Assembly: GCF_000949475.1 (NCBI RefSeq)
Contig: NZ_JRHC01000009.1
Span: 1-64,000 of the forward strand
Source: Draconibacterium sediminis
GTDB lineage: Bacteria; Bacteroidota; Bacteroidia; Bacteroidales; Prolixibacteraceae
Direction: 5' to 3'
Length of the DNA stretch: 64,000 bases
Shown here in pieces: positions 20,446 to 55,028 of this stretch. Numbering within the stretch: position 1 is the stretch's first letter; each line of letters opens with the position of its first letter. The translations under genes and the position numbers were made by a program. The notes below the pieces were generated by a model. That model searched no databases. It had not been told where the DNA came from and saw only the letters and a program-made list of their open reading frames with translations.

Positions 20446-20892
20446 TTATTATCCATTTGTTTAAAAATTTAGAACTCCATTCAATTCGTATGAATTTGAG
20501 ACTCAATTTTTGACAAGAAAGGTAATGAAAAGATTAACTGAAATGCTCACCAATATTGGTTTTAGGCAGGCTAAATTGTATAAAATACTTGTGATATAGT
20601 GGATTCTCATATTTGTAAAGGTAGGTTTTCAGTGAGATTGCGATCCCGCTATGTCGAATTTAATAATAATTGGTAATCACTTGAATAAACTATATTCTCT
20701 TTAAAATATGACAGGTTGTTTTTTGGGTAATTCAACCTCCTTTTAATTGAACAAATACTTCACTTTGCAACATCTGTTCAATGTTGACCATTAAGTTCAG
20801 AAAACTGGCTTTGGTTTTAAATTTATTCTTGCGCTATTCCTTTAGGTTTGTTGACACTTAAATGTAAAAATAAAACTAAAGAATCTATTCAT
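20446..20892 (+). other. Intergenic region between blocks A and B
   Basis: This 447-base stretch has no convincing gene. I see no strong terminator after the GH2 gene. Its right half (20747-20850) carries the regulatory module described separately. The left 300 bases are AT-rich and show nothing I can name. Confidence 0.6.
20747..20850 (+). promoter_or_regulatory. Candidate operator-promoter of block B, copy 1 of shared module
   Basis: TTGAACA at 20747, then TTCA cores at 20759, 20777 and 20796 (18-19 bases apart), then AACTG, and a consensus Bacteroidota -7 box TAGGTTTG at 20843-20850. The same elements occur ungapped at 36267-36370, with the -7-like box at exactly the same distance (96 bases from TTGAACA). 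Spaced direct repeats are what an AraC-type dimer binds. The regulator encoded at 32162-36229 is the obvious candidate (inference). Confidence 0.55.
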
Positions 20893-22314
20893 ATGAAACT
20901 TAGAACTGTTATGCTATTGGCAGTGGTCTGTTTTACCTTGTCAGGGTTTGGGCAGGAAAAGAAACCTAATGTAGTCGTGTTTTTAGTAGACGATTTAAGA
21001 ACAGAACTCGGTTGTTACGGTAGCACTCATGTTAAAAGCCCAAACATCGATGCGCTGGCAAAAGACGGTGTGTTATTCGATAAAGCCTATTGTCAGGAAG
21101 CAATTTGTGCACCATCGCGGATGAGTATATTAACTGGTTTGCACCCACAAAATATTGGTATTTATTCCTTATTTACTCCACTGCGCAAAAAGCACAAAGA
21201 TATGGTTACCCTGCCGCAGTTCTTCAAAGCCAATGGGTACACCACGGTTAGCATAGGTAAAGTTTATCATCATACATTCGACGATAAAGAAAGTTGGAGT
21301 ATTCATATTCCAAAAGAATCCAACGCTTATGTGCTCCCTGAAAATATTGCTTTACAGAACAGTGGTAGTGGTAAAGGATCGGCTTTTGAATGTGCTGATG
21401 TTACCGATGACGCCTACAAGGATGGAAGAACAGCAAATCATGCCATTGAAACACTTCAAAAAATAAAAGATGAAAAGTTTGTAATGTTTGTTGGTTTAAG
21501 CAAACCACACTTGCCTTTTAATGCACCAAAAAAATATTGGGACATGTACAAAGAAGGTGATTTTACAATTCCCGTCAAAAAAGCTCCCGAAGGGATGAGT
21601 TCGCTGGCATTAACTAAATGGGGAGAGTTGCGTGGATACCATGGTATTCCGAAAGAAGGTTTATTGGATGATGAGCTAAGCCTTAAATTAATGCACGGTT
21701 ACTACGCTTGTGTAAGCTATATCGATGCACAAATGGGCAAAGTAATGCAAGCTTTAGAAGACCTTGATTTACGCGAAAATACCATGGTGGTTTTAATGAG
21801 CGACCATGGCTGGAAATTAGGAGAATACGGTGCCTGGTGCAAACATACCAATTTTGAATTAGACGTTCATGTGCCAATGATTATTAGCCGGGAGACCTCG
21901 CATAAAAACCGACAAACCAATGTACGAAGCCAGGCACTTGTTGAGAATATTGACATTTTTCCAACAATTGCCGAAGCATGTGAATTAGAAGTGCATCCTG
22001 TCGACGGGAAAAGCATTTTGAAATTGGTTGATAATCCCGAAATGGAGTGGGATAAAGCAGCTTATAGCATCTATCCACGTGGCGAAAAATACATGGGCTG
22101 CACTGTAACGGACGGCGAGTGGCGCTACACCGAATGGCGAAATATGGATGAGCACAACACGCATTCGGTTGAGTTGTATCCGTGCCAAACTGATTTCAAT
22201 AAAGTGGGTGAAAATCTGGCTGGAGGTGAAAAGTACAAAGGTATTCAGATAAAAATGAAAAAGTTACTGGACGAAAATTTCTCACCTGAGCGTATTTCGT
22301 TTTATACTAACTAA
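20893..22314 (+). CDS. Type I (S1_7-like) sulfatase, iduronate-2-sulfatase family
   Basis: I start at the ATG at 20893, because an upstream in-frame start at 20848 lies inside the promoter box and would spoil the signal peptide. The 473-residue product has a signal ending in GFGQ. The S1 signature is clear: [17 protein letters not shown] (metal-binding Asp pair), CAPSR with Cys72 in [21 protein letters not shown], and [18 protein letters not shown]. The DDLR-ELGCYG start, CAPSR and the WKLGE-GxWCKHT block are typical of iduronate-2-sulfatases (S1_7), a group that includes an ulvan-active enzyme (established knowledge). It opens block B and precedes the heparinase-fold lyase by 15 bases. Confidence 0.9.
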
Positions 22315-22329: not shown

Positions 22330-25300
22330 ATGAAACAATTTATATTTAAAGCAAAACTACTTGTTTTTTTATTGATGTTTGGAACAGCTTATGCTCAGTC
22401 GTTGCAACACCCTGTTATCTGGGCAACTAACAACGATAAAGCTGAAATACAGGCTAAAGTAGAAAATTACAACTGGGCCAACAGTATAATTACAAAAGCC
22501 AAAGCGGCAATTGATGATAAAGTTAATACACATATTTCAAACCCGACGGCAATATTAGGCACAATTCCGGTGTGCGAAACCCGCGATGATTTGTCAGAAT
22601 CTGCTGCCAGTGCTAATAATGCAAAACATGCACAGGTACTTAATTATGCATCATATGCGGCCATGGTTTATTATGTGACAAGTGAAGAGAAATATGCGCA
22701 GTTTGCTGCCGATATTCTTTGGTATTACATAGAAGAACTGGCGCCGCGAACACCCGAAACTACTGCTTTAAGCGGAAGCCATTTTTACGATCCAAGGGCC
22801 GGTTACCTGCAGTTTGCCATGGCCTACGATTTAATGGTTAGTTATTTAAAGCAAACCGGCACTAAAGTGTATCGAAAATCAACTGGAAGCAGAGTTGCTT
22901 TTGATAACGTAAAGGCACAAAAAGCCGTTCACAACATTGCAATGAATGCTTTACAAGAGCATGCCGGTGCTGATACCCGGATTGGACAACGAGTAAGCAA
23001 TCATCCTATTTTAAGAGCACCCGGAGTTTTGTTCAACATTCTTTGTGTGGAAGATGATAACGAACGCGAGCGAATGTTCGAAGTATTCTGGAATACAGGA
23101 ACAAAGAATCAAAACTCGTTTACAAAAACAATTTTACCAATGTTTGGCGATCAAGGTATTTGGCCCGAAGCGGTGAGTTACAGTTTTATGCCAAACATTA
23201 CATTGGTGCTTGATGTGGTCGACCGCCTAAAGCCCGAAATGAATTTGATGGCGGATAAAATGCACATCCTGGATGGTAATTTCCTTTTTGATAATCTGAG
23301 GTATCCCAACAGACGTTTTGTGCGCTATGGCGATTCGCACCGCGACAACGACGGAACCGGGGCACTTTATCGCTACACCCTTGATTTAGCTGCAAGAAGA
23401 GGTTTTGCAGCATATGAACAAAAAGCCACGGTTGCCTTGCGCCAAGGCTACGATGCAGAAGGTGGGTACGATCCGGCAGTTCCGGTTACAACTTTTGATA
23501 ATGTAAAAGCTTTTGAACAATTGTTTTTGGGAATAGATATTCCTGAAACCATTGACGGAGAAATTGATTTTCAGAAACCGACTGTAGTAATAGAACATGC
23601 AGGTGTTGCCCTTCAGCGGAATTATGTTGAGGTAAATAATATCGATTATGGGCTTTGCGGAATAATTGGAGGGGCTCATTATGTGCACTCGCATTGCACA
23701 GGTATTACAATGGAACTTTATGGAGCCGATTATATTATGGCAGCTAATGGTGGTTTGCCAAACTCATTGGCCGAAAGAAAAGAAGATGTTCATACTGGTT
23801 ACTTTTGGCGCCACGCAGGAAACAATACCGTAATTGTAAACGGAACATCGCATGGTATTCAGCAAGGTTCGTGGAAATCCAATTCCGATTTGTGGATGAA
23901 TACCACTGTAAACGAAGCTGCCGAACCAAAACATCTCGAAGACCCGGTTAATCCGAATTTCAGCTTTGCCACCCAGTTTTTAGATGACGAAGTAAACAAT
24001 TGCGAACAGCAACGTACACTAAGTACCATTCGAACCAGCGAAACAAGTGGTTATTATTTTGATCTATTCCGTTCAAAATCTACTGTAAATAATAATTTTC
24101 ACGATTATGTATACCATAATATTGGCGACGAAACACATATTTTCAATAGTAATGGCGACGAATTAAGTGTATCGGCAACCGCAAGGTATCAGACCGATAT
24201 TGGCGACACCTACAAGTCTCCGGGATGGCGCTTTTTTGAAGAAACAAAAGTTACAGCACCGCTTGACGAGGCAACCAATATTCGCTTCGATTTAAATGAA
24301 ACGAACACCTACATGAACATGTTTGTACCTGCTGATGTAGTGCGTGAATACACAAAAGCAGTAGGACCTGCCACACGCGAAGCAAAAGGAGGTTACGAGG
24401 ATAGAAAGACACAAATACTGGCTGTGCGTCAAAATGGTGAGGCCTGGAATAAACCTTACGTTCATATCTTTGAACCATCAAAATCAACCATTACAAGTGT
24501 AAAATCGGTTGAGCATTTGTACCGGGGCGAGGTGATTGTTGGTGCAAAAGTTACCAGTCAGATTGATAATAAAACAATAGTTGATTACGTGATTTGTCAG
24601 GAAGATGAAAACCAAACGTTTACGCTGCCGGAGATGGGATTGACTTTTAACGGGCGTTTTGCCGTGGTAAGAACCGAACAGGATTTGGGAAAGGCACAGA
24701 CAACGTTGTACATTGGCGAGGGTACTAAACTAACTTTCGGCAACCATATGCTGGAAGCAGATGCTGATAAAAAGGGAAACCTTGTTGTTGAAGGGGAAGT
24801 AGATTTAAGCCGGGTGCTTGGTTTTAAAAACCTTTCGAATAATACCGTGGTTGAGAGAGGCAGTAGCCTATCGGTTGAAGCTGTGGTTGGGAGCGACTTC
24901 ACGGAAGTAACCTTGTTTGTAAACGGAGCGAATGCGGGAACTATAACACAGGCTCCGTATATATGGGAGTCGAATGCCCTCTTAGCTAACCTTACAGAGC
25001 CATCATATATTTTAAAACTGGTAGCCAAAGATGTAAATAATGAGGTTGCAGAGAGCTCAATTTCCATTTTAACTCCCGGACAGTGGGCACGTACAACCGA
25101 TTTTCACCCACATTCGGTGCCAGGAGTAATTCAGTTTGAAGACTATGATTATGGCGGAGCAGGTGTGTCGTATTACGACCGATCGCCCATTGATGAGTCG
25201 AAATACAAGTATTGGGAAGGTGATAACGTGGATTTAAATAGTTCAAAAGAGAGGATAAGTTACATTCAGGGACAAGAGTGGTTAGAGTACACCATAAATG

Positions 25301-25827
25301 TTGAAAGCACTGGCTACTACGATTTTTTTGTTAATCATCAAACTCGGCGTACACCCGAATTTGAAGCCCTTACCGTTTCTTTGCCCGATGAAAATAAGGT
25401 TTTGTTTAGCAAGAAAATACTTACATACACGGGTACGGGTGCATTTGCTACCGATTTGCTAGGCAATGTTTACCTGGAAAAGGGGACACATGTAATCCGG
25501 TTTTACATGGATAGTTATGGCTTCGATTTGGATTATTTTGAACTAAAACTCACACAACCAACCGGTAATAAGCAGATTCAGGCGGAAGCAGATCGGTTGA
25601 AAATTTACCCCAATCCGGCACACGATACCGTAAATATTGCCATGGATGGATTTCGAACCGCCGATATCACCATTTACAATATGGCCGGGCAACTTATGTT
25701 TAACACACAAACAAGCGAATCAGTCATTCAACTGTCTCGTAGCTTCAATTATAAACGTGGACTATATGTGGTTAGGGTGTTGGATGAAAACAAACAGGCA
25801 CACTTTGGAAAACTAATATTTAGGTAG
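22330..25827 (+). CDS. Heparinase II/III-fold polysaccharide lyase, multidomain, T9SS-secreted
   Basis: This 1165-residue protein has a signal peptide (1-22, ending AYAQ). Residues about 25-390 form an (alpha/alpha) toroid of the alginate-lyase/heparinase type; about 410-800 form the heparinase II/III-like beta domain with the typical AHYVHSHCTGITMELYG segment near residue 450, which holds the His residues usual for this clan. Next come an Ig-like domain (about 830-915, FTEVTLFVNGANAG), a CBM6-like domain (about 927-1078, beginning VIQFEDYDYGGAGVSYYD) and a type IX sorting tail (from 1087, LKIYPNPAHDTVNIAM). It should cleave uronic-acid-containing chains by beta-elimination outside the cell. 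The exact family (PL12, PL17, PL21-like or unassigned) and substrate are not clear. Confidence 0.85.
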   Translation: MKQFIFKAKLLVFLLMFGTAYAQSLQHPVIWATNNDKAEIQAKVENYNWANSIITKAKAAIDDKVNTHISNPTAILGTIPVCETRDDLSESAASANNAKHAQVLNYASYAAMVYYVTSEEKYAQFAADILWYYIEELAPRTPETTALSGSHFYDPRAGYLQFAMAYDLMVSYLKQTGTKVYRKSTGSRVAFDNVKAQKAVHNIAMNALQEHAGADTRIGQRVSNHPILRAPGVLFNILCVEDDNERERMFEVFWNTGTKNQNSFTKTILPMFGDQGIWPEAVSYSFMPNITLVLDVVDRLKPEMNLMADKMHILDGNFLFDNLRYPNRRFVRYGDSHRDNDGTGALYRYTLDLAARRGFAAYEQKATVALRQGYDAEGGYDPAVPVTTFDNVKAFEQLFLGIDIPETIDGEIDFQKPTVVIEHAGVALQRNYVEVNNIDYGLCGIIGGAHYVHSHCTGITMELYGADYIMAANGGLPNSLAERKEDVHTGYFWRHAGNNTVIVNGTSHGIQQGSWKSNSDLWMNTTVNEAAEPKHLEDPVNPNFSFATQFLDDEVNNCEQQRTLSTIRTSETSGYYFDLFRSKSTVNNNFHDYVYHNIGDETHIFNSNGDELSVSATARYQTDIGDTYKSPGWRFFEETKVTAPLDEATNIRFDLNETNTYMNMFVPADVVREYTKAVGPATREAKGGYEDRKTQILAVRQNGEAWNKPYVHIFEPSKSTITSVKSVEHLYRGEVIVGAKVTSQIDNKTIVDYVICQEDENQTFTLPEMGLTFNGRFAVVRTEQDLGKAQTTLYIGEGTKLTFGNHMLEADADKKGNLVVEGEVDLSRVLGFKNLSNNTVVERGSSLSVEAVVGSDFTEVTLFVNGANAGTITQAPYIWESNALLANLTEPSYILKLVAKDVNNEVAESSISILTPGQWARTTDFHPHSVPGVIQFEDYDYGGAGVSYYDRSPIDESKYKYWEGDNVDLNSSKERISYIQGQEWLEYTINVESTGYYDFFVNHQTRRTPEFEALTVSLPDENKVLFSKKILTYTGTGAFATDLLGNVYLEKGTHVIRFYMDSYGFDLDYFELKLTQPTGNKQIQAEADRLKIYPNPAHDTVNIAMDGFRTADITIYNMAGQLMFNTQTSESVIQLSRSFNYKRGLYVVRVLDENKQAHFGKLIFR

Positions 25828-25845: not shown

Positions 25846-28320
25846 ATGAAATACTTATTGTCAACACTTTTTGTGCTTTTTTGCACTTCAGTTGTTTTTA
25901 GTCAAACAGAACAGAAGGAGGTAAATTACTTTGCCAACAATGCTTTTGGTAATCCGATAGTAGGCAAATTGGGAGAACATTATAATGGAGTAACTTATAT
26001 CGCCTATCAAGGAGAAAAGGAAGACCCGTACGTTGCTGCGTACGACCATAAAAAGGAGATGTGGATAGGACCCTATAAAGCCGGGACAAGTTTACTGGGT
26101 AAAACATCCGGTAAAAAAATCGATAACCACGGAAAACCAACTTTGGTTGTAGATGGAGAAGGGTATATCCATGTTGTTTTTGGAGGACATGGAGGTTCAA
26201 AAGAGTTTGGCGAGAATTCTCTTGGAAATTACAATTGCGGAAAACAAATCCATGTTAAAACAAAAAAGCCCATGGATATATCGAGTTGGGAAGAGGTGGA
26301 TAACCTTACACCCTTTGCAACTTATAGCCAGTTTCTGAAAATGGACAATGGAGATATCTACTTGTTTTATCGGCATGGGGCACATCGTAGTGATTGGGTT
26401 TATCAGGTATCGAAAGACAATTGCCGCACGTTTTCTCCCAAAGTTTCCATTGTTAAAGCAAAGCCGACATCCGCAACAGAGGAGTGTTCTGATGTCTGGG
26501 ACTCCTGGTATCTTGATATTCAGCATGGCAATGGCAACGACATTATCGTTTCGTACAATTACCACGTTTGCAAAAACATGCGCCCTCACGATAGTGAACG
26601 TCATAATTGTTACTATATGAAGTTCGATACCGATAAAAATGAGTGGTACAATGTAAAAGGTGAATCATTAAAGCTTCCTGTAACCAAAGAGTATGCCGAT
26701 ACAATGACTCTGGTTGCAAACACCGGGGATAAATGGAATCATATCGGGCGAGCCTGTATAAATAAAAATGGTTTTCCCCATGTTGGCTTTTATGAAGGCG
26801 AAGATGATGGTTCGCTTAATGGCGGACCCAAACAGCTTAAACTTTATCAATGGACAGGTAATGAGTGGATTGGGGGCAGAACAAACCTGCCGGAAGAAGC
26901 CCGAGGAGAAATGAACGTAAAATCACCTGATTCAGTAAGTTGTTTACTTGGTAATGATAAGGGTGAGTTTGGTGAGGTAGCCTGGTGGAATAGTAGCAAT
27001 GGCAACACAGCGTTTACAAAAGAAGCTGTTTTGCTAAAGGAAGAAGGTGGTCGGTTCACCTTGTCCAATTTTATTCGAAATGCACATCCGGATGCAAAAA
27101 TTGTTGCAACACAAAAAATAGAAGGTACTGATTATTCGAGAATTTTTCTTTTAGCTGATAAGGGGCCGATAATGCGAAAGAAAGCTGAAGCTGACTTAAT
27201 TTGTGTAAGTGAAAATCAGGAGTTTGATATCGAATCAGTCTTGAAAAAATCAGAAAAGCAATATGCTGTACTTCTGGGATCAGCTTATGCTGAAAATAAA
27301 ATACCACGAGCAACTGATGGCCATGATGAGATTGAATGGGCACAACGAAAAATGGATTGGACTCAGGGATTTTTCCCCGGTTGTTGCTGGAAACTATATG
27401 AATATACTAACGATGCCAAATGGAAAAAGGCAGCCGATTATTTTCAAAACCTGTTTATTGACGGGAAAGATGTAAACACTACCCACGACCTGGGGTTTAT
27501 GTTCTACTGCTCTTTTGGCGAGGGATATGAATTAACAAAAGACGAAACGTATAAACAGGTGGTAATTGATGCTTCTGAAGCTTTAATTACCCGGTACGAT
27601 TCAACGGTAGGTTGCATAAAAAGCTGGGACTTTGGAAAAGAAAGGTGGACATTTCCGGTTATTATTGATAACATGTTAAACCTTGAAATGTTATTTGAGG
27701 CTTCGCTTTTAACCGGCGACGAAAAATATAAAAACGTTGCTATAAACCATGCGAATACTACATTGAAAAATCATTTCAGAGACGATTACAGCACCTGGCA
27801 CGTGGTAGATTACAACCCTGAAGATGGAACGGTATTTAAGAAATTAACACATCAGGGCTATTCGGACGAAAGCAGCTGGGCCAGAGGACAAGGCTGGGCA
27901 CTTTACGGTTATACCATGTGCTACCGTTATACAAAAAATCCGGTATACCTGGAGCAGGCAAAACATGTAGCAGAATTTGTTTCCGCAAATTTACCTGTCG
28001 ATTATGTGCCGTTTTGGGATTTTAATGTAAGCGATGCTGAAATTATGTACAAAGATGCTTCTGCCGGGTCACTTTATGCTTCTGCCTTTATCGAATTGTA
28101 TGAATACACCAACAACGAAGCGTATAAAACTTTGGCAATAAATATTTTAAAATCGTTGAGCTCCGAGAAATACTTCTCAGAATATGGCGAAAACTGTGGT
28201 TTTTTGTTGAAGCATAGTGTTGGTAATTTCCCAAAAGTCAGCGAGATAGATGTTCCGATTAATTATGCCGATTATTATTGCCTGGAAGCTTTGTTACGAT
28301 TGAAAAAACTAAATAATTAA
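25846..28320 (+). CDS. Fusion: BNR_4 propeller lyase (ulvan-lyase-like) + GH88 unsaturated uronyl hydrolase
   Basis: This 824-residue exported protein (signal 1-19) joins two enzymes. Residues about 21-430 are a BNR_4-type seven-bladed propeller with His95 (DNHGKP), His115 (GGHGG), Tyr160 (ATYSQF), Arg176 (FYRHG) and Tyr222. The His-His spacing of 20 and Tyr-Arg spacing of 16 match what I remember of the ulvan lyase active sites of PL24/PL25. Residues about 440-824 are a GH88 (alpha/alpha)6 hydrolase with catalytic Asp548 (THDLGFM) and Asp608 (IIDNMLN) and the substrate motif SSWARGQGWALYGY. GH88 removes the unsaturated uronyl group that the lyase creates, so one chain would do two consecutive steps. 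There is no T9SS tail, so it is probably periplasmic. Gene spacing to its neighbours is 18 and 13 bases. Confidence 0.85.
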   Translation: MKYLLSTLFVLFCTSVVFSQTEQKEVNYFANNAFGNPIVGKLGEHYNGVTYIAYQGEKEDPYVAAYDHKKEMWIGPYKAGTSLLGKTSGKKIDNHGKPTLVVDGEGYIHVVFGGHGGSKEFGENSLGNYNCGKQIHVKTKKPMDISSWEEVDNLTPFATYSQFLKMDNGDIYLFYRHGAHRSDWVYQVSKDNCRTFSPKVSIVKAKPTSATEECSDVWDSWYLDIQHGNGNDIIVSYNYHVCKNMRPHDSERHNCYYMKFDTDKNEWYNVKGESLKLPVTKEYADTMTLVANTGDKWNHIGRACINKNGFPHVGFYEGEDDGSLNGGPKQLKLYQWTGNEWIGGRTNLPEEARGEMNVKSPDSVSCLLGNDKGEFGEVAWWNSSNGNTAFTKEAVLLKEEGGRFTLSNFIRNAHPDAKIVATQKIEGTDYSRIFLLADKGPIMRKKAEADLICVSENQEFDIESVLKKSEKQYAVLLGSAYAENKIPRATDGHDEIEWAQRKMDWTQGFFPGCCWKLYEYTNDAKWKKAADYFQNLFIDGKDVNTTHDLGFMFYCSFGEGYELTKDETYKQVVIDASEALITRYDSTVGCIKSWDFGKERWTFPVIIDNMLNLEMLFEASLLTGDEKYKNVAINHANTTLKNHFRDDYSTWHVVDYNPEDGTVFKKLTHQGYSDESSWARGQGWALYGYTMCYRYTKNPVYLEQAKHVAEFVSANLPVDYVPFWDFNVSDAEIMYKDASAGSLYASAFIELYEYTNNEAYKTLAINILKSLSSEKYFSEYGENCGFLLKHSVGNFPKVSEIDVPINYADYYCLEALLRLKKLNN

Positions 28321-28333: not shown

Positions 28334-30544
28334 ATGGTTAAAGTTATTGTTCTTGGAGGATTGCTGCTCGTTTGTTTGGTTTTACAAGCGCAAACCGAGG
28401 CGCCATCGTGGGTAGAATATGCCGATAAAAAAGAAAGTAACAGGTTGGACGAAGCTACTTTAAGCGATTATTCCTATTCGGGGTATCATTTCTCCGAAAA
28501 AGAAATTCCCGATGTTTCGGGCTGGACCAGGTTTGATGTTACAAACTACGGAGCGTCTCCGGATGATGAACATTATGACGATGATGGTATTCGGGCAGCC
28601 ATTAATGCCGCAATTGCCAGTAATCAACCCGCTGTGGTTTTTTTTCCAGCCGGAAAATTCCTGGTAGCTGATGCCGCTAATGCCGATAAGCCGTTTGTAA
28701 TAAATGCCAGCAACATTGTATTAAAAGGAGCTGGCTCCGGCGACGGTGGTACCGAAATTTACACTGATAAAACCCTTGATAATCCTTCTGATGCAGCGAT
28801 ATATCCCTGGCGTTTTCATTTTAAAGCCGATAACAATGCGATTGATGAGAAAATCACTTCAATTAATAAACGAATTAACAGGGGCGATTTTACAATTGAA
28901 GTTCAGGATGCAAGTGGATTAAGCGTAGGGCAGATTGTAAACCTTTATCACGGTGGAGTTGCCAATCTCGAAGCAAATATGCCCGGGTTAAGCTATAAGG
29001 CAGAGTGGATAAGAATAATAAATAACGGTATCAGGACTCATGAAAAACATATTATTGAATCTATCGAAGGCAATAAGGTAAAGTTTAAAAATCCTGTTCA
29101 ATACAATATAACAGCCGATGTTTCGGGGGCTGAGCTACGAAAATATTATACAATTGAAGAGGTAGGTGTAGAAGACATTTTATTTACCAGCGGCTGGGCA
29201 AATAGTGCAGAGGTTTATGCGCATCATGCCAGCGATTATGTAGATTATGCCTACCGGGCTCTGGCGTTTGAAAATGTGAAAAACGGCTGGATTCGTAATT
29301 GTCAAATCAAAGATTGGAACGAAAGCCTGATGATTGAGAAAAGTATCGGGGTAACAGTTAAAAACATTTTAATCTCGGGAAAGCAAGGCCATACTTCCTA
29401 TTTTGCACGATACTCTTATGGGGTTTTATTCGAAGATTGTAGAGACATCGTACCTGTAGGATTTAAAAATGCAGGAGGACAGGGGCACGGACCCGGAATG
29501 CGCTGGTCAACCGTAAATACCGTATTTCTTAACTGTGAAATGCCGAAACACCAATCAATTGATTGTCATGGTTATCACCCCTACAGTAATTTGTTGGATA
29601 ATGTTTCAGGGGGCTCTTTTTATAATAATGGAGGTGCCGAAATTGCGTATCCCAACAGTGGCCCTTATATGACCTTTTGGAATTTTCTCCACGATGCACA
29701 TTACAGCAATTGGACATTTGATTTTTGGGACACGGTAAATCGAAAAAACAATACTTATGTGAATCCTCTTTTTGTTGGTTTCCGTGTAGTGGAAAAGCCG
29801 GTTACCTTAAAAAATACAGGTTTGAATGAGTTAAATGGTGAACAAGCCTATCCAAAGTCATTATTCGAGGCACAACTGCAACTTCGGCTGTACGGAGGCT
29901 ATATGTCGGCTTCTTCCTCAAAAGAAGAATTTTTACCTGTAAATGCGAATGATGACAAGGCTGCAACAAACTGGACTTCAGAAAATGCCGGGGCAGGCGA
30001 ATGGCTGATGCTCGACCTGGGCAAAGCGGAAAGTGTAAATGAACTTACAGTAGATGAAACTACAGCAGGCATTGATGAGTGGAAGCTGGAGGCCTGGGGT
30101 GAAGGCGAATGGCAAATCCTAAAAACAGGATCGGAAATCGGAGCCAATAAAGTGATTTCTTTTGAACGAGTGGACACCCGCAAGTTACGATTGGTTGTTG
30201 TAAGCATGAAAAACGGGCTGGAAAGTAATCCCGTTTCAATAAACGAATTTAAGGTTTCAGGAGATTCTTACTATGTTGGAATTGTTAATCAACCAACAAT
30301 TAATAATGAATTTATAAGTGTTTACCCAAATCCAAGTAATGCGCTGGTTAATATTGACATCAATTTTGAAGGCAATAAACACATTGCAATCTACAATTCT
30401 GTTGGAAAGCTGATTTGGCAAAAAGTTACCGTACAAAAAAGTATTCAGCTTTCAAAAGGCGTTGAATTAAATAGAGGATTTTATATTATCAGGATTATAG
30501 GTAATGGTAATCACATGTTTACGGGGAAAATGATTATTCAATAG
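28334..30544 (+). CDS. Right-handed beta-helix (pectate-lyase-superfamily) protein with F5/8C and T9SS tail
   Basis: This 736-residue secreted protein has a signal peptide ending LVLQAQ. Residues about 60-500 begin with the pectate-lyase-3 type motif FDVTNYGASPDD, followed by DDGIRAAINAA and VVFFPAGKFLV, then beta-helix rungs rich in Asn, Gly and His, including GGQGHGPGMRW and SIDCHGYHPYS. A discoidin-like module lies at about 530-640 and a type IX sorting tail begins near 660 (SVYPNPSNALVNI). Such helices act as polysaccharide lyases or hydrolases, or as sugar-binding proteins. The position at the end of a lyase operon fits an outer chain-cutting role, but I cannot point to a catalytic set. 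Confidence 0.75.
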   Translation: MVKVIVLGGLLLVCLVLQAQTEAPSWVEYADKKESNRLDEATLSDYSYSGYHFSEKEIPDVSGWTRFDVTNYGASPDDEHYDDDGIRAAINAAIASNQPAVVFFPAGKFLVADAANADKPFVINASNIVLKGAGSGDGGTEIYTDKTLDNPSDAAIYPWRFHFKADNNAIDEKITSINKRINRGDFTIEVQDASGLSVGQIVNLYHGGVANLEANMPGLSYKAEWIRIINNGIRTHEKHIIESIEGNKVKFKNPVQYNITADVSGAELRKYYTIEEVGVEDILFTSGWANSAEVYAHHASDYVDYAYRALAFENVKNGWIRNCQIKDWNESLMIEKSIGVTVKNILISGKQGHTSYFARYSYGVLFEDCRDIVPVGFKNAGGQGHGPGMRWSTVNTVFLNCEMPKHQSIDCHGYHPYSNLLDNVSGGSFYNNGGAEIAYPNSGPYMTFWNFLHDAHYSNWTFDFWDTVNRKNNTYVNPLFVGFRVVEKPVTLKNTGLNELNGEQAYPKSLFEAQLQLRLYGGYMSASSSKEEFLPVNANDDKAATNWTSENAGAGEWLMLDLGKAESVNELTVDETTAGIDEWKLEAWGEGEWQILKTGSEIGANKVISFERVDTRKLRLVVVSMKNGLESNPVSINEFKVSGDSYYVGIVNQPTINNEFISVYPNPSNALVNIDINFEGNKHIAIYNSVGKLIWQKVTVQKSIQLSKGVELNRGFYIIRIIGNGNHMFTGKMIIQ

Positions 30545-36407: not shown

Positions 36408-37508
36408 ATGAAAAACATCGTTTATGCCTTTTTTCTAACTCTATTGTTTCTTTTAGGCTGCAACAACACTGAAAAAGGAAATTTATCAATTCTTCCGAAT
36501 GCTTTAAAGTCAACCGAAAACCGTGTTTTCGACTCTTATTTCAATTATGTTGAAAATATAAGTTCTGCTGATATCCCTCTCAATAAATGCATTCAAAGGA
36601 ACAAGCTTTGCGAGGATCTCGATTTTATCAAGAAAGTAGTAGACAATCCTGATTTATTGTATTTTCCAGCTACATTATGGCAACTGAACATTCTTCGGAG
36701 GAAAAAGGGCTGGGAACAACAGGTACCAGATTTTACAAAAGAAATTCAAAAAGCATTTTCGAATAATATTATAATCAACGGCGAACATATTCAAAGTATT
36801 TTTCTGTCTGCATACGAATATAATCCAACGATGGAATTGCTCGATGTAATTGTTAATGGCCTTTCGAATCATATTTCCCGTATCGAAAGAGATAAGATTA
36901 ATATAGACAAGGAAGTAGCTACTATAAATAATCTGGATTTATTGATGGAAAACAAAATAATGTTTTTCGCAACTAAAAAAACAGGAGATCCTGTTTTTCA
37001 GAACTTTGCAATAGAAAATACTTCGTTTTTTTACGAAGAAGCTTTTAAAAATGATTTACGCATTATGTCCGTGATGTCAAATGGCATTTCTGAAGGTAAC
37101 TTAAAACTACTACGTACTGAAGATTTTTATAAAATGGCACTTGGAATTCGTGGTTTTTACGAATTATACAAAGAAACAGGAATAGAAGATTATTTGAAGC
37201 TTTGTGAAGATATTGCCATGGTGTTTAATTCAATTTTTAATAGTAGCGAAGTAGATATTAAAATAGTGGATAATATAAATTTATTGTCTCAAAGCCTGGT
37301 AATTTTGGCCTTGTATGATTTATCAAAATCTCTTGATAATTCTTTTCTGGAGACTTCTGAGGAAATCTATCAAAACGTTTTAATGAAGCTGGAATCACTT
37401 TATCCCGATATAGAAGTACTGAACAGTGAGGATGGTATGCCGAACGAATCGTTCAGATTGTTTTATTATTTATTGGAATACGAGATAAGAAAGCAAAATG
37501 AATCATGA
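36408..37508 (+). CDS. Lipoprotein with GH88-like fold, probably catalytically inactive
   Basis: The 366-residue protein has a lipoprotein signal (Cys18 in FLLGC). It is all-helical by appearance. By eye it aligns with the GH88 half of the fusion at 25846: DLLMENKIMFFATKKTGD here corresponds without gaps to DNMLNLEMLFEASLLTGD there, followed by FQNFAIEN versus YKNVAINH and YKETGIEDYLKLCEDIA versus YRYTKNPVYLEQAKHVA. Asp177 would match the GH88 catalytic Asp608. The other catalytic Asp is replaced by Ile128 (after His127), and the SSWARGQGW substrate motif is lost. So it looks like a diverged GH88 pseudoenzyme. It stands divergent to the regulator gene behind a copy of the shared promoter, which suggests a ligand-binding role for unsaturated uronides (inference). 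No closer family is recognised. Confidence 0.6.
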   Translation: MKNIVYAFFLTLLFLLGCNNTEKGNLSILPNALKSTENRVFDSYFNYVENISSADIPLNKCIQRNKLCEDLDFIKKVVDNPDLLYFPATLWQLNILRRKKGWEQQVPDFTKEIQKAFSNNIIINGEHIQSIFLSAYEYNPTMELLDVIVNGLSNHISRIERDKINIDKEVATINNLDLLMENKIMFFATKKTGDPVFQNFAIENTSFFYEEAFKNDLRIMSVMSNGISEGNLKLLRTEDFYKMALGIRGFYELYKETGIEDYLKLCEDIAMVFNSIFNSSEVDIKIVDNINLLSQSLVILALYDLSKSLDNSFLETSEEIYQNVLMKLESLYPDIEVLNSEDGMPNESFRLFYYLLEYEIRKQNES

Positions 37509-37844
37509 AATAGAATTACAATAGTTTTTCTCAAAGGGATTTTAGCTTGGGAGTTTAGTTAGTTAGTTAGTTTAGATTTGATTTATGGGGTGTAGTTCCT
37601 GCACCTCATATTTCTTCTAAAAAGAAACGACGAAAAACAATTTTTACAATAATTCGAAACAATTGCAATAAGGAATGGAATAAAGACGAAAAGAATTGAA
37701 ACAATATTGTTAGTAATTGCACGATATTGAAAAAAAAAGCTTACACCATTCACTAGTTTTGAAGTTGGAGTAGTGTGCTATTTGTAGGCCAAATTTCAAA
37801 CTAAGATTATTCTTGTAAAAGTGTTTTTTAGTAATAAAACAGTG
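37509..37844 (+). other. Intergenic region before block C
   Basis: This 336-base stretch has no gene. It holds a short TTAG tetranucleotide run at about 37554-37574, a hairpin (separate entry), and two similar AT-rich motifs, AATTCGAAACAAT at 37651 and AATTGAAACAAT at 37694, which could be operator half-sites. The shared module of block B is not recognisable here. Confidence 0.45.
37585..37609 (+). terminator. Possible terminator hairpin after the GH88-like lipoprotein gene
   Basis: ATGGGGTG at 37585-37592 pairs with CACCTCAT at 37602-37609 (8 pairs, one G-T) across a 9-base loop, followed by a T-rich stretch. It lies 77 bases after the stop codon. Confidence 0.4.
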
Positions 37845-40800
37845 ATGAAAATAATAATGAACCAATATACTATGAACAAAGTATCAATGAAAGTCACAAT
37901 TTTACTTTTTGTATTGCTTCTTATAACTCCTTCTTTTGGGATGGCGGCAATAAATGGTAAAGAGAAAAAGGCAAAAACAAAAAAACCGAACATTATCTTT
38001 ATCCTCACCGATGACCAGCGTTATAATGCGCTGGGGTATGCCGGAAATAAACTAGCCACAACACCGGAAATGGATAAACTGGCCGAAAGTGGTGTTTATT
38101 TTAAAAACTCGGTAGTTACAACACCCATTTGTTCGGCAAGCCGGGCAAGTATTTTCTCCGGTTTACATGAACGCACCCATAAATACACCTTTCAAACTGG
38201 AGATATACGTGCTGAATACATGGAAGTTGCTTATCCGAAATTGCTTAAAGAAGCAGGATATTATACCGGTTTTTTTGGGAAATACGGCGTGAAATATTCC
38301 AAAAAAGAGAAACATTTTGATGTTTTTGAAGATTATGATCGCAATAACCGCTACAAAGATTACAGAGGATATTACTACAAAACTTTAGGCAACGACACGG
38401 TGCACCTAACCCGTTACACCGGGCAAAAAGCATTAGACTTTTTAGATGATGTTCCGGCAAACAAACCATTTTCATTATCGCTATGTTTTAGTGCTCCGCA
38501 TGCACACGATGGGGCGCCATTACAATATTTTTGGCAAGAGGAGCCTGGCAAACTCTACCAAAATATGGATATGCCAGAGCCCGAGTTAGCTGATGATAAA
38601 TATTTTTATGCATTACCCAAAATTGTTCGCGATGGATTTAACCGTTTACGCTGGACCTGGAGGAATGATACACCGGAAAAATACCAGCACAGTACAAAAG
38701 GATACTACCGAATGATTTATGGTGTTGATCTTGAGATTGCAAAAATTAGGAAAAAGCTGGAAGAAAAAGGATTAGCTGAAAACACTGTTATTATTTTGTT
38801 GGGAGACAACGGCTTTTTCCTGGGGGAACGCCAGATCTCAGGAAAATGGCTGATGTATGACAATTCAATTCGTACTCCGCTTATTATCTACGATCCACGC
38901 GTAAATAAACACCGCGATATTGAGGATATGGCATTGAACATTGACGTTCCTGCCACCATTCTGGATTTGGCGGGGGTTGATATTCCCGAAACCTACCAGG
39001 GAAAAAGTTTAGTGCCTGTTATTAACGGAAAAGAAAAATCGATTGGAAGAGATACAGTTCTGATTGAACATCTTTGGGAATTTGAAAATATTCCACCAAG
39101 CGAAGGAATAAGAACTAACGAGTGGAAATATTTGCGCTATGTAAACGACAAGTCGCTGGAAGAGTTGTACAACTTGAAGGACGATCCAAAGGAAACGAAT
39201 AACCTTGCCGCCAATCCAGAGTACAAAGACGTTTTGTTGGAACTGCGTGCCAAAAACGATGAGCTTGGGCAACGATATGCCGACCCGTTTTCTGGAATTC
39301 CCACCGGATTAACAGTGGAATACATTCGTAAACCTGAAAATGTAAAAATAAATGATAGCAAACCGGAATTTAGTTGGATTGTTCCAAAAGAGGCTGTTTT
39401 GCAAAAGGCCTACCAGGTGCTCGTTTCATCAAGCAGAGAATTAGCAGAAAAGAATATTGGTGATGTTTGGAACAGCGGTCAGGTTCGAAGCAATAAATCA
39501 TCGGATGTTGAACTGGAAGGAGAACGATTGAACCCAAACACCTCTTACTTTTGGAAAGTGCGTATTTTTGACAAAGACAACCGTATTTCTGAATATTCCG
39601 AAATTCAGGAGTTCAAAACCGGTTCGTTTGAGGGTGATATTACTTCGCAGAATTTTTTTCAGGTAGAAAAAATAAAGCCTGTTGACTCGAAACAATTGGC
39701 CGATGGCACGTATTTTATAGATTTTGGGAAGCATGCTTTTGGAACAATAGAACTAAACTACATGCCGAAAAAAGCAGAAACCCTTACCGTTCGCTTGGGT
39801 GAAAAATTATTGGATGGCAGAATAGACCAAAATCCGGGCGGAACAATCCGTTATGCCGAGGTACAGTTGGAAGTGAGGCCAGAAAAAAGTTCATATTTAG
39901 TTGAATTGGTTCCCGACAAACGTAATACAAACGAATTGGCAGTTACAATGCCCGATTCGTTTCCTGTTATCTTGCCGTTCCGGTATGCCGAAATTGTGGG
40001 AGCAGGAAAGAACTTTGAGCCCGGTATGGCAACTCAGTTAGCCTACTTTAATTATTTCGATTATAACACAAGTGCATTTAGTAGTTCTGATACCATTTTA
40101 AACCAGGTATGGAACATGTGCAAGTATTCGATGAAAGCAACCACTTTTGCCGGATATTATGTGGATGGCGACCGCGAACGGATTCCTTATGAAGCTGATG
40201 CTTATTTAAATCAGTTGAGCCACTATTCAGTTGATAATGAATATGCAATTGCCCGAAAAACAATTGAGTTCTTTTTTGAAAGTAAACCCACCTGGCCAAC
40301 CGAGTGGCAAATGCATGTAGCCATGATGATGTACCAGGATTATATGTATACCGGAAACACCGAGCTGATTGAAAAATATTACGAACGATTGAAAATTAAA
40401 ACCTTGATGGTGTTGGAGGTTGAGGATGGTTTTATCAGCACCGAATCACCCAATCATAATGTGGAATTGATTAAACAACTCGGTTTTAGGGATACAACCA
40501 ATCGTTTACGCGACATTGTTGACTGGCCTCCAAAAGCAGATAATTTTGGCGGCAAAGGACCAATTCCTGGCGAGCGCGACGGATATGTGTTTAAACGCAT
40601 TAACACGGTTGTAAATGGTTTTTATTACCATAACATGAAAATAATGGCAGAATTTGCCAAACTTCTTGATAAACCAAGCGAGGCATTGGATTTTGAATTT
40701 AGGGCGGCGCGTGTTAAAAAAGCAATTAATGAACAACTTTTTGACCAAGACAGAGGGGTTTATGTTGATGGTGTGGGGACTGAGCACGCATCCTTGCACG

Positions 40801-41420
40801 CCAATATGATTTTATTGGCTTTTGATGTGGTTCCCGATTCACATAAGCAAAGTGTGGTTGACTATGTAAAAACAAGAGGAATGGCTTGCAGCGTTTATGG
40901 TGCACAGTATTTAATGGAAGCACTATATAAAGCCGGTGAAGCCGACTATGCCCTCGACTTAATGACGGCCACACACGACCGTAGCTGGTATAACATGATA
41001 AAAATTGGCGCCACCATTACCTTGGAAGCCTGGGATATGAAATATAAAAGCAATGCCGATTGGAATCATGCCTGGGGTGCAGCACCTGCCAATATTATCC
41101 CTCGTGGAATGTGGGGGATTCAACCTGATACTCCGGGATTCGGAGTGGTTGAAATCAAACCACAAATGGGCAAGTTGAAAAACAGTAGCATAAAAGTTCC
41201 AACAATAAAAGGAGAAATAAAGGCCGATTACAATAAAATGAATGCCCGAATGAGTACATACAGCATTGAATTGCCGGCTAATATGATTGGCGAGTTTTCT
41301 GTTAAACTCTCCTCTGAAGATGTGGTAACGTTGAATGGAAAAACGGTTAATCCTGTTTTTGGGTCCATCCGTTTAAATCCCGGCGTTAACAATATTGCCA
41401 TTCAAGTGAATTCATTTTAA
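37845..41420 (+). CDS. Fusion: S1 sulfatase (CSASR type) + GH78 alpha-L-rhamnosidase
   Basis: I start at the ATG at 37845; ATGs at 37857 and 37872 and a GTG at 37821 are in-frame alternatives. The product of about 1191 residues has an N-terminal signal, then an S1 sulfatase (about 45-480) with [15 protein letters not shown], the maturation motif CSASR at Cys96, and [13 protein letters not shown]. From about residue 490 it continues into a GH78 rhamnosidase: a fibronectin-like N-domain ([16 protein letters not shown]), a beta domain, and an (alpha/alpha)6 catalytic domain with [16 protein letters not shown] and a C-terminal domain. A sulfatase-GH78 fusion of this kind is known from the ulvan locus of Formosa agariphila (S1_25-GH78; from memory). 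It would remove sulfate from, and then cleave, terminal sulfated rhamnose. It opens block C. Confidence 0.9.
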
Positions 41421-41449: not shown

Positions 41450-42571
41450 ATGAGATTATTGATAAAGAAAAGTATTTGTGTTCTATTAGTAAGTATTCTG
41501 TTTGGTGCGTGTTATGCAGGCCCAAAAAGTAAAGAGTGGAACGATAAACAGGCGATGGTAAAGGCCATGGAATGGCAGGAACAACATCCGATATTTGCAC
41601 TTGCGCCAACCGATTGGACAAACGGAGTTTATTACAAAGGAGTAAGTGAAGCTTTTCGGGCAACCAACGACCAACGGTATTTGGCAGCCTTAAAAACAAT
41701 GGGGTATCGTAATGATTGGAAACCTTTGCACCGAACACATCATGCAGATGACATTTCAATTTCGTATTCTTACTTATTTATAAGTACCACACGTCGCAAT
41801 CTGGTTGACCTTAAACCAACAAAAGACTGGCTGGATAAGCATTTAATGGAAGCCAACGAGTGGAATGGCATTGGAGGCGAAAGCAAAATGCCTACCCTTT
41901 GGTGGTGGTGCGATGCTTTGTTTATGGCACCTCCGGTAATTGCTTATTACGCTGAACTTACAGGTGAAAAAAAGTACCTGGATGCCATGCACAAATACTA
42001 CAAAGAAACATATGACTTATTGTTCGACCAGGAAGAAAAATTGTTTGCCCGCGACCTTCGCTACGTATGGAAAGGTAACGAAAAGGATATAAAGGAGGAG
42101 AACGGTCAAAAAGTGTTTTGGTCGCGCGGAAATGGTTGGGTAATTGGTGGTTTGGCATTAATTCTTGAACATTTGCCTGCCGATTACGAACACCGCTCTT
42201 ATTACGAAGATTTATTGAAAACTATGGCAGCCCGTTTGAAAGAAATTCAACACGAAGATGGTTTGTGGCGTACCAGTTTATTGTCACCCGAATCATACAA
42301 TCATGGCGAAGTTAGTGGTAGTGGGCTGTACACCTTCGCTATAGCCTGGGGCATAAACAATGGTTTGCTGGATAAGAACGAATACGAACCAGTTGTTATA
42401 AAAGCGTGGGAAGCTTTGCGTACCTGTCAGAACGATGAAGGTATGGTAGGTTGGGTGCAAAACATTGGAGATTCGCCAAAACCTGCCGATGCCGGCAGTT
42501 GGCAAAACTACGGAACCGGGGCATTTTTGCTCGCGGGGAGCGAAATGTTGAAACTTCAGGATAACAAATAA
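41450..42571 (+). CDS. GH105 unsaturated uronyl hydrolase
   Basis: This 373-residue exported protein has a signal peptide (1-23) with a Cys at LFGACYAG, so it could be a lipoprotein. It is an (alpha/alpha)6-barrel hydrolase of GH105. The two conserved acidic sites are visible as [12 protein letters not shown] (Asp100/101) and [12 protein letters not shown] (Asp155), and the substrate-binding [12 protein letters not shown] block is intact. GH105 enzymes hydrate and release the 4,5-unsaturated uronic acid left by lyases; ulvan loci carry such members (established knowledge). The gene follows the sulfatase-GH78 fusion by 29 bases and precedes GH43, so it belongs to the exo-trimming set of block C. 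Confidence 0.92.
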
Positions 42572-42633
42572 CCAGATATTTAAGAATGAGTCCCGAGTTT
42601 AAGGACTCATTCGTTTACCTACAATCTAGTCCA

Positions 42634-43971
42634 ATGAACAAGCTTTTTATTCTACTCCTGTTTTTTACAACTCCAATTTTATTATTTGCTACCAATCCTA
42701 TCATTCCCAACAAAGGAGCAAACGACCCGCACATTCGTATCATAGATGGAAAAGCCTACTTGTCAGCAAGCCATGATAAATCATCCGATAACAAAAGATT
42801 TACAATGGAAGACTGGTGGCTGTGGTCATCGGACGATTTGGTAAATTGGAAACTGGAGTATACTCTTAAACCCGAAGAAACATACATTGGTAAACCGTTT
42901 GACCAATGCTGGGCAACCGATATTGTAAAACGAAATGGAAAATTCTACTGGTATTTCTCTGAAGGCAATAAACAAACGGGGGTGATGGTTGGGGATTCGC
43001 CGATCGGGCCATGGAAAGATCCGCTTGGTAAACCTTTACTAACTTCAGATATGACACCAACCCATGAATATGATATGGGCATCGTTCAGGATGAAGCAGG
43101 AGAGTATTATATTGTTTTTGGGGTGTGGGATTACTACATCGCCAAATTGAATGAAGATATGATTTCATTGGCGGAGAATCCTAGGAAAATAGAAATAAAT
43201 AATCCACGTGGCCCATACAATTTAGATGGCAAAAACCACGAGAAACCAACCGATGATAAACCTTTTATTCATTTTTATAATGGGAATTTTTACTTGTCGT
43301 GGGGATGTTTTTATGCCATTGCAGATAACGTTTATGGCCCATATAATTACAAGGGCTCAATAATCGAGAAGGGGAGTTTTGCACCTGGTTATGATGCGCC
43401 AACCTGGCCTACCGGTTTTCGTCAAGGTCGGCATGGTTCTTTTTTTCAGTGGCATAACCAATGGTACTTCGCCTATTGCGATATTAGCCAAACCGGCAAC
43501 CGCTATTTCCGCGATACTTTTATCAGTTACGTTCATTACAAAGAAAATGGCGAAATGGCTCTAATTAGGATTGATGGAATTGGGGTTGGTGAGTACGACG
43601 CTAATCAAACCATTCAGGCCGAAGATTATTTTAAAGCTTTTGGAATTCATAAAAAGGAAACAGAAACGAATGGTTTTGTAATTGACAATATCAGCAATAA
43701 CGATTTTTTGACCTTTCAAAATATAAAGGGATTGCAAGGGAAAAAGAAAATTGAGTTTTCAGCAATTCCTAACGAGGAGGTAACTATTCAGATTTATCAG
43801 AATTCACCAGAGGGTAAGCTGCTGGCAAGTTGTGAAATAGCACCGGCAGACACGACAAAAAAGAATTTTGTTTGCGATTTGCCCGCAATGTCGGATACTG
43901 AAACCTTGTGTTTTGTTTTTGTCGGAAAAGACAAACAGCTGATGCAATTCGGTTCATTTTCATTCAAATAA
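42634..43971 (+). CDS. GH43-family glycosidase with C-terminal CBM6-like domain
   Basis: The ATG at 42634 gives a clean signal peptide (LFILLLFFTTPILLFATN); the longer frame from 42586 adds 16 residues that do not fit. The protein is 446 residues. The N-terminal five-bladed propeller shows NKGANDPHIRI, with Asp31 as the likely general base, WATDIVKRNGKFYWYFS in blade 2, and EYDMGIVQDEAGEYYIVFG. Residues about 325-446 resemble a CBM6-type module (TIQAEDYFKAFGIHKKETETN). GH43 members with this layout are beta-xylosidases or arabinofuranosidases. In an ulvan-type locus a beta-xylosidase is the natural expectation (inference). Confidence 0.85.
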   Translation: MNKLFILLLFFTTPILLFATNPIIPNKGANDPHIRIIDGKAYLSASHDKSSDNKRFTMEDWWLWSSDDLVNWKLEYTLKPEETYIGKPFDQCWATDIVKRNGKFYWYFSEGNKQTGVMVGDSPIGPWKDPLGKPLLTSDMTPTHEYDMGIVQDEAGEYYIVFGVWDYYIAKLNEDMISLAENPRKIEINNPRGPYNLDGKNHEKPTDDKPFIHFYNGNFYLSWGCFYAIADNVYGPYNYKGSIIEKGSFAPGYDAPTWPTGFRQGRHGSFFQWHNQWYFAYCDISQTGNRYFRDTFISYVHYKENGEMALIRIDGIGVGEYDANQTIQAEDYFKAFGIHKKETETNGFVIDNISNNDFLTFQNIKGLQGKKKIEFSAIPNEEVTIQIYQNSPEGKLLASCEIAPADTTKKNFVCDLPAMSDTETLCFVFVGKDKQLMQFGSFSFK

Positions 43972-43994: not shown

Positions 43995-45380
43995 ATGAAC
44001 AGTAAATTTATTCAAAGCATAAAAGTTCTGCTATTTTTTGTTTTTGCACTCATTTTAATGAATTGTACCGGAAAGAATAGTGAAAACGCATCTAAGGAGG
44101 AATTGAAAATTATAGAAGATATCATAATCGACTCTGTATGGGTAGCCAACAAAGTTTCGTTTGCATTGCAAACCGTTGGCGATAAACAGTTTGTTGCCTA
44201 TTACGATAAAAACCGAATGATGACAGTTGCTTCAAGAGAGCTTGGCAGCAATAAATGGCAAAAAACAACCTTGCCCAATAAACTGCACTGGGATTCGCAT
44301 AATTACGTGGCAATGGCTGTTGACAGAAAAGGATACATTCATGTGTCTGGAAATATGCATGTAAACCCGCTGGTTTATTTCCGCAGCGAAAAACCTTACG
44401 ATATAAGCACGATGCTTGAACTGAATGAAATGACAGGAATGAACGAGCAACGGGTAACCTATCCAAAGTTCTTTTTCAACAATGAGGGCGATTTACTTTA
44501 TTCATACCGCTCAGGTTCGTGCGGAAACGGGAACATTTTGGTGAAACGATTTCTACCCGAAAAAAAGGAGTGGGAAGTATACCTGAAAGAGCCATTATTT
44601 GAAGGTGTTGAAGCCGATGATGACCGTGCGGCTTATCACCAGTTTGTGAAAGATTCGGAGGGTAATTTTCATTTTTTATGGATTTGGCGATGGACTCCGG
44701 ATGTTGAAACGAGCCACCAAATTTGTTATGCCACTACGCCCGATTTAATAAACTGGAAAAATGCGGCAGGCGAATCAGTTTCTTTGCCTCACCAGCCCGA
44801 TGATGAAAAACTGATAGTTGACCCGACGCCATCAAAAGGAGGAATGAGCAACGCACGTTACCGGATTATTTTAACACCTGATGAAAAACCTTTGGTCGGC
44901 TATATAAAATACGATGAAGAAGGATTGACACAGTTTTTCCTGGCTAATTTTACGAATGGGATATGGGTGTCGAGACAAATTAGCAACTGGGATTTTCGGT
45001 GGAAATTTGTTGAAGGTGGCGACCAAATGACAATGGGTGGTGTTTTCAATTTTATTGGTTTTTCGGAAGATGGATTGCTGGGCGTGGATTGGAAAACTGA
45101 AACCGGGAAATCGGGACGATATGTAATCAATCCTGAAACGCTTGAGGTGGTGAATGCCAATACAAAATTTAAACCCCAATATCCTGAAAATCTATATGAC
45201 AGAATTACCGGGCATCCTGAAATGTCGGTAAATATTCAAAACGACAGGAGCTTCAATGCGAATGATAACACGTGCTACGTTTTAAAATGGGAAAGCATGG
45301 GCAAAAGCCATGGCCGACATGCTCCTGAAGTTATTCCTGATGGGCCGATAAGTCCCCTGGTTCTGGTGGCATACAACTAA
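43995..45380 (+). CDS. BNR_4 propeller polysaccharide lyase, PL25 ulvan-lyase-like, lipoprotein
   Basis: This 461-residue lipoprotein (Cys24 in LILMNC) is a BNR_4 seven-bladed propeller. Candidate active-site residues are His102 (WDSHNY), His122 (SGNMH), Tyr156 (VTYPKF), Arg172 (YSYRSG) and Tyr214 (AAYHQF). As I recall it, the PL25 enzyme PLSV_3936 uses His123, His143, Tyr188, Arg204 and Tyr246. The offsets between these positions agree (20, then 16, then 42), with a single 11-residue shift between the second His and first Tyr. That is strong support for an ulvan-lyase-type active site. It should cleave between sulfated rhamnose and uronic acid by beta-elimination, anchored to the membrane. 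The fusion at 25846 is a more distant relative. Confidence 0.85.
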   Translation: MNSKFIQSIKVLLFFVFALILMNCTGKNSENASKEELKIIEDIIIDSVWVANKVSFALQTVGDKQFVAYYDKNRMMTVASRELGSNKWQKTTLPNKLHWDSHNYVAMAVDRKGYIHVSGNMHVNPLVYFRSEKPYDISTMLELNEMTGMNEQRVTYPKFFFNNEGDLLYSYRSGSCGNGNILVKRFLPEKKEWEVYLKEPLFEGVEADDDRAAYHQFVKDSEGNFHFLWIWRWTPDVETSHQICYATTPDLINWKNAAGESVSLPHQPDDEKLIVDPTPSKGGMSNARYRIILTPDEKPLVGYIKYDEEGLTQFFLANFTNGIWVSRQISNWDFRWKFVEGGDQMTMGGVFNFIGFSEDGLLGVDWKTETGKSGRYVINPETLEVVNANTKFKPQYPENLYDRITGHPEMSVNIQNDRSFNANDNTCYVLKWESMGKSHGRHAPEVIPDGPISPLVLVAYN

Positions 45381-52570: not shown

Positions 52571-52858
52571 ATGAGGCCGAAGAAAAATATTATTTTCCCC
52601 AAACACCTGCAAATTTTGGAACGTTTGGGAGAAAATATTAAACTGGCACGAAAAAGGAGAAAACTAACAACGGTTCAGGTAGCAGAGCGTGCAGATATCG
52701 ACAGGACAACGTTGTATCAGATAGAGAAAGGGAATCCTAAAGTATCTATGGGGGCTTATTTTAACGTCCTGAGAGTTTTAGGCCTGCAGGACGATTTCCT
52801 AAAACTGGCTGCCGATGATACCCTGGGCAGAAAGTTACAGGATTTGGATTTGTTGTAG
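52571..52858 (+). CDS. hipB: HipB-like XRE-family antitoxin
   Basis: The 95-residue protein is a Cro/C1-type helix-turn-helix regulator: LGENIKLARKRRKLTTVQVAERADIDRTTLYQIEKGNPKVSMGAY is the HTH (about residues 17-62, visible in parts such as TVQVAERADIDRTTL). It is followed 43 bases later by a hipA gene in the same direction, so this is a HipBA pair in which HipB binds and inhibits HipA and represses the operon. The operator-promoter directly upstream, with 13-base arms, supports autoregulation. Its length fits HipB antitoxins. It is part of the accessory cargo of the mobilizable element. Confidence 0.88.
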   Translation: MRPKKNIIFPKHLQILERLGENIKLARKRRKLTTVQVAERADIDRTTLYQIEKGNPKVSMGAYFNVLRVLGLQDDFLKLAADDTLGRKLQDLDLL

Positions 52859-52901
52859 AATCACGGTTACACATAAAGAGGTAACCATCGATATAAGAAA
52901 T

Positions 52902-54152: not shown

Positions 54153-54453
54153 TTTATCTTTGATATTTTTTGTTGGTATTCTCCAGTGCCCCGGCCCATT
54201 CCCCTGACGGGCTTCAACGCTCCCTAAACCCGTTCGCCCACTCCCGGGAAACGTTCGCTGGTTTTGCCCTTACAGAAAAAAGCGCCTACAGGCATCACAC
54301 TCAAAAGCGCCATCCTTTCGTTTCACTACTGTCCTGCACTTTCCTTTTGCCCGCCCACCTAAGCGATTTAAGGGTTGTTAATTCTTAAAAGGTTGAAAAC
54401 AAAAGAAGACGCCCAAAGATCGCCAGCCTCCGCTAAAGCCCAAGCCCGTTAAA

Positions 54454-55001: not shown

Positions 55002-55028
55002 GGTCTTTACAATTAAAATTTATAAGCC

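Follow-up and report, generated by a model that had tools for sequence, protein, structure and literature searches.

Does one gene of Draconibacterium sediminis encode an enzyme that would carry out two successive steps in the breakdown of ulvan? The question is raised by an open reading frame (ORF) at 25846–28320 (+ strand) of the window, that is, of the whole 64,000-nucleotide stretch analyzed here (contig NZ_JRHC01000009.1, positions 1 to 64,000), which a preliminary description made from the sequence alone had interpreted as an ulvan-lyase-type propeller joined to a GH88 unsaturated uronyl hydrolase. The frame starts with ATG, comprises 824 codons with no internal stop, and lies in a co-directional run between genes ending at 25827 and starting at 28334. 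It joins two domains of established families, each with its catalytic residues intact; separate, neighboring homologues of both are found in two other genomes, and the gene is located within an ulvan locus. We consider it probable (about 0.8) that its product is a natural fusion acting as a bifunctional two-step ulvan enzyme.

Architecture of the protein and its lyase half

The protein begins with an N-terminal signal peptide (approximately residues 1–20, 25846–25905), judged by eye to be of the Sec type (VVFS-Q), with no lipobox seen. It is followed by a PL25 ulvan lyase domain, a β-propeller spanning residues ~23–453 (25912–27204) and delineated by phmmer, the predicted model, fold matching, and conservation. 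The end of the lyase tail and the fusion junction occupy 27205–27222, and the GH88 domain, supported by phmmer, Pfam, a model, and a fold match, extends over residues ~460–824 (27223–28317); all these parts are on the + strand. No type IX secretion system (T9SS) sorting tail is present on the fusion protein, unlike on the adjoining PL40 lyase.

Residues 22–445 match PLSV_3936 (5UAM) over the whole PL25 domain with an E value of 1e-126 in phmmer. The superposition that the preliminary description had proposed as a check places the predicted propeller on the PL25 structure 5UAS, and fold alignments give 43–45% identity to 5UAM and 5UAS. The description had assigned the domain to PL24 or PL25; the latter assignment stands, whereas PL24 lacks close sequence similarity and is related by fold only. 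The retention of His95, Tyr160, and Arg176 is borne out: these residues are invariant in all 44 PL25 rows aligned and correspond to His123, Tyr188, and Arg204 of PLSV_3936, with catalytic roles taken from the work on SH2L_Ulv3 (PMC13193363). In that enzyme, the same His and Tyr are 2.6 and 3.0 Å from the substrate when the ligand of 5UAS is superposed (PMC13193363). His115, also listed originally among the lyase residues, is present, but it is classed as substrate-binding together with Asn36, Asn94, Lys97, and Tyr222 (PMC13193363). The putative zinc ligands, with roles taken from the same source, are all found as well (His180, His240, Cys242, and His248). Although the fourth ligand is numbered 247 in SH2L_Ulv3 (PMC13193363), position 247 is a proline and position 248 a histidine in 44 of 44 PL25 rows, and the fourth ligand was thus assigned to His248 by conservation. 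The N-terminal half is an intact PL25 ulvan lyase domain, with its activity predicted from sequence.

The GH88 half

Members of GH88 remove an unsaturated residue by hydration. The nearest solved relative of the C-terminal half is 3WIW (phmmer E 2e-91), followed by Streptococcus and Bacillus enzymes (E 3e-52 to 2e-51). That this half is a complete GH88 domain with Asp548 and Asp608, as described earlier, was confirmed, since these residues, counted on the phmmer alignment, fall opposite Asp115 and Asp175 of the unsaturated glucuronyl hydrolase from S. agalactiae. We take the latter two to be the catalytic pair, and D115N and D175N mutants of the Streptococcus enzyme are among the titles in the PDB. 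Folded alone from an alignment of four rows (the window domain and three relatives), the domain gave a predicted template modeling score of 0.83 and a mean predicted local distance difference test (pLDDT) value of 76, and its best fold match, over the whole domain, was again 3WIW (TM 0.80).

Junction and probable origin of the fusion

Two genomes, G622 and G1058, carry the closest counterparts of the two halves as separate genes. In G622, a 458-residue PL25 protein that is 72% identical to the window lyase is followed, after a gap of 43 nucleotides, by a GH88 gene, the product of which is 80% identical to the window domain over 289 residues and 72% over a further 79, with a run of N between these segments. 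In G1058, one gene lies between the PL25 (63%) and GH88 (77%) genes, and both unfused hydrolases have lipoprotein-like signals of their own. Comparison of the junction with G622 identifies Glu459 as the counterpart of the residue with which the unfused lyase ends and Phe460 as belonging to the mature part of the hydrolase, a boundary placed by a short alignment of a divergent tail that may shift by some residues. The stop codon, the gap, the signal, and the first mature codons, amounting to 112 nucleotides in G622, are absent from the window gene. Cys453 was considered as a relic of a GH88 lipobox and was dropped, the lyase tail of G622 being aligned through residue 459. In a tree of 31 GH88 rows, the window domain groups with those of G622 and G1058 (support 97/100); three GH88s from the same family as the window form the next group, which joins with a support of 88/94.

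These comparisons indicate, as the most likely origin of the fusion, a short deletion between neighboring genes, in which the lyase stop, the gap, and the lipoprotein-like signal of the hydrolase would have been lost. Because G622 is not an ancestor, we only infer that the direction was one of fusion rather than fission. The two genes are also found side by side on a Catenovulum adriaticum plasmid, 200 nucleotides apart, where the GH88 is only 33% identical, and in Echinicola sp. 20G, where a glucuronyl hydrolase, known by name only, and a PL25 lyase are coding sequences 433 and 434 (PMC9182395). Among the six nearest unfused PL25s (62–73% identical), two have a close GH88 adjacent or one gene away; the pairing thus recurs without being constant.

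Distribution of the fusion

Among the genomes searched, the fusion was found only in that of the window. The genome counts for the lyase half include the window's own genome where it belongs to the set, and some sets overlap. Within the family of the window, a strong match to the lyase half was found in 1 of 140 genomes; at E ≤ 0.001, there were 23 matches, the other 22 of them at E 6e-10 or weaker. In the class, 2 of 395 genomes have a match below E 1e-40 and 11 of 395 at 0.001; the order gave 3 of 393 genomes and the family of Nonlabens 17 of 397. Further sets gave 1/3, 5/159, 2/198, and 4/149 genomes, the last three overlapping with earlier sets. When the whole protein was used as the query, 101 of the 140 family genomes matched, and among the matches listed, only the window protein covers both halves. 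No fusion was found in five genomes reached through loci or in the 18 loci recovered from genome contigs with two strict patterns, and no relative was found in viral contigs. Plasmids contributed 216 records, one of which covers at least 80% of the query, as two genes. In all, 46 distinct PL25 ORFs were fetched, and of the 45 judged (L080, cut by a contig end, was left out), that of the window is the only one with GH88.

Two other PL25 proteins carry different extensions. One (713 residues, L102, 1402–3540) is fused to a DUF1961 domain and looks like the same kind of neighbor fusion, a DUF1961 protein being encoded in Persicobacter (L111) by a separate gene directly after the PL25 gene. The other (L059, 5116–7185) is extended by ~250 residues that terminate in a T9SS sorting tail, is followed by a gene similar to 22330–25827 of the window (30% identity), and may be an extracellular form of the lyase. 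A contig of the verrucomicrobium Pelagicoccus mobilis (L109/L110) carries two full PL25 genes, a more distant PL25-like gene, and two GH88-like genes.

The surrounding locus

The enzymes encoded around the fusion gene constitute the set expected of an ulvan utilization locus, namely lyases accompanied by GH105 and GH88, sulfatases, and rhamnosidases; all features given below are on the + strand except where no strand is noted, and they were assigned with Pfam unless stated otherwise. A sulfatase (20848–22314) precedes a PL40-type ulvan lyase (22330–25827) that matches Uly1040 (9vtk, phmmer E 2e-79), has a C-terminal region resembling CBM6 proteins, and ends in a T9SS tail (Por_Secre_tail), so that a second ulvan lyase family is encoded directly upstream of the fusion gene. 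Downstream lies a pectate-lyase-like/DUF4955 protein with an F5/8 domain and a T9SS tail (28334–30544), which, with 236 bits, falls far short of the cut-off of 1100 for the hyaluronan endo-lyases of NCBIfam BT_3328. A 366-residue protein within the locus (36408–37508, strand not noted) has no Pfam match. It is followed by a sulfatase–GH78 fusion (37821–41420), an ulvan-type GH105 unsaturated rhamnoglycuronyl hydrolase (41450–42571; 4ce7, phmmer E 2e-148), and a GH43 protein with CBM6 (42586–43971). The next gene (43995–45380, strand not noted) encodes a second BNR_4 protein, BT3686-like, that resembles BACINT_00347 (5mum, GH145; E 1e-43) and, weakly, a fungal rhamnose-glucuronate lyase (7esl, E 9e-16). 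A GH106 α-L-rhamnosidase (45409–47631) and a hybrid two-component regulator complete the set, which may thus include two consecutive-step fusions, PL25–GH88 and sulfatase–GH78. The window has 35 ORFs of at least 150 residues, and a Pfam scan covering 32 of them detected no SusC/SusD pair; because the first base of the window is also the first of the contig, the locus may be cut. Next to it, at 52815–60135, are genes of the mobile-element type (HipA, relaxase, ArdC-like, and phage-type integrase).

Proposed mechanism and alternatives

In the proposed mechanism, the PL25 propeller would cleave the bond between 3-sulfated rhamnose (Rha3S) and the uronate, Rha3S-(1,4)-uronate, of ulvan or ulvan oligosaccharides by β-elimination, with Tyr160 and His95 acting as the acid–base pair and Arg176 providing neutralization. 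A 4,5-unsaturated uronyl residue would be left on the new non-reducing end and would then be removed by the GH88 domain through Asp548 and Asp608, leaving an oligosaccharide ended by Rha3S for later enzymes of the locus. Such an unsaturated end, left by the lyase, is what GH88 and GH105 require (PMC8511951). The two-step logic of the preliminary description holds, with catalysis at both sites and the order of action predicted. A periplasmic place is favored because the signal is of the Sec type, no lipobox is seen, and a T9SS tail is lacking; the fusion protein would then act on oligosaccharides released by the adjoining T9SS-tailed PL40 lyase. A fuller scenario, in which one deletion-born chain performs the first two ulvan steps on imported oligosaccharides in the periplasm at an obligate 1:1 ratio of lyase to hydrolase, is tentative, with the odds slightly against all its parts holding together.

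Several observations weigh against a bifunctional ulvan enzyme. The location of the protein was judged by eye. Confidence is only moderate in the blocks of the lyase model that contain His95 (79) and His115 (74). The full-length model is poor in its GH88 half, because GH88-only rows were misaligned and were left out, and it does not define how the two domains are placed relative to each other. Other observations would fit an arrangement in which both domains are active on different substrates, PL25 on ulvan and GH88 on unsaturated ends derived, for example, from glucuronan, heparosan, or side chains, with the fusion serving for co-delivery. The structure 3WIW is titled heparin-specific, the same locus already has a dedicated GH105 for ulvan, and in the stretches fetched no close GH88 lies beside the PL25s of G984, Persicobacter, and L059 or beside the second one of G622, which make up four of the six nearest unfused homologues. 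We nevertheless regard such a division of substrates as unlikely, since the two closest GH88s (77–80%) occur near PL25 genes and group with that of the window apart from the other GH88s fetched, and since the ulvan locus of Pseudoalteromonas marina has both GH88 and GH105, each proposed to act on ulvan ends (PMC13050008).

The fusion could also be incidental if the GH88 half were made alone, by proteolysis or by internal initiation at Met443. This in-frame ATG precedes the GH88 domain by 17 residues, the sequence a few bases 5′ of it is rich in G, and a separate cytoplasmic GH88 could start there. Met443 is, however, inside the lyase tail, where it is also present in the unfused Persicobacter lyase, and it is not followed by a hydrophobic signal, in contrast to the GH88s of G622 and G1058, making this explanation improbable. 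Least plausible of all is an artefact of assembly or sequencing joining two genes. Detection in only one of the genomes searched would be compatible with it, but a missed stop codon was rejected, as the gap and the GH88 signal are absent from a clean junction. GC content is even across the junction, and a two-domain BNR_4 protein, its second domain unnamed, was reported from D. sediminis (PMC13193363), although that record would be independent only if it came from a strain other than that of the window.

Comparison with known systems

The bifunctional ulvan enzyme proposed here pairs two known families in a new way that is rationalized by unfused neighboring homologues, with its activity predicted. 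In the literature examined, ulvan lyases occur as enzymes distinct from the unsaturated uronyl hydrolases, and a PL25–GH88 fusion is not described there; PL25 and GH88 are both absent from the available portion of PMC12325347. The earlier statement that no such enzyme was known holds to that extent, but it needs to be qualified by the two-domain BNR_4 protein already in print and by a known fusion for consecutive steps, P36. The former, WP_045033608.1, has a BNR_4 part 64% identical to SH2L_Ulv3 (PMC13193363). Its second domain is not named in the portion of that paper available; it may be the window protein or an ortholog, as the catalytic residues of SH2L_Ulv3 are numbered as in the window protein (95, 160, and 176).

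The fold, the catalytic residues, and the zinc site are common to the window protein and to the PL25 ulvan lyases PLSV_3936 (5UAM) and SH2L_Ulv3 (PMC13193363). The nine characterized PL25s end at residues 444–499 (PMC13193363, Table 1) and are thus of lyase-only size, whereas the window protein adds GH88. In turn, 3WIW shares the fold and the Asp pair with the window GH88 but is a single-domain chain of 402 residues. G622, G1058, the Catenovulum adriaticum plasmid, and Echinicola sp. 20G have the same pair of enzymes in a locus, but as two polypeptides. With such close unfused relatives, the fusion would permit a direct test of whether ulvan is broken down faster when the two enzymes are physically coupled, and it could serve as a tool in which a single protein erases the 235 nm absorbance of its own product. 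To judge from its predicted location, the periplasm rather than the cell exterior may be where at least one ulvan lyase acts. P36 of Formosa agariphila, consisting of an S1_25 sulfatase and GH78 and described as the first enzyme of ulvan degradation to be multimodular, likewise has domains for consecutive steps, although these (desulfation and rhamnose removal) are later than those of the window fusion (PMC8511951). The protein encoded at 37821–41420 of the window shares both domain types of P36, a likeness of domain type alone, and the PL25–GH88 protein would be the second multimodular ulvan enzyme for consecutive steps after P36, acting at earlier ones.
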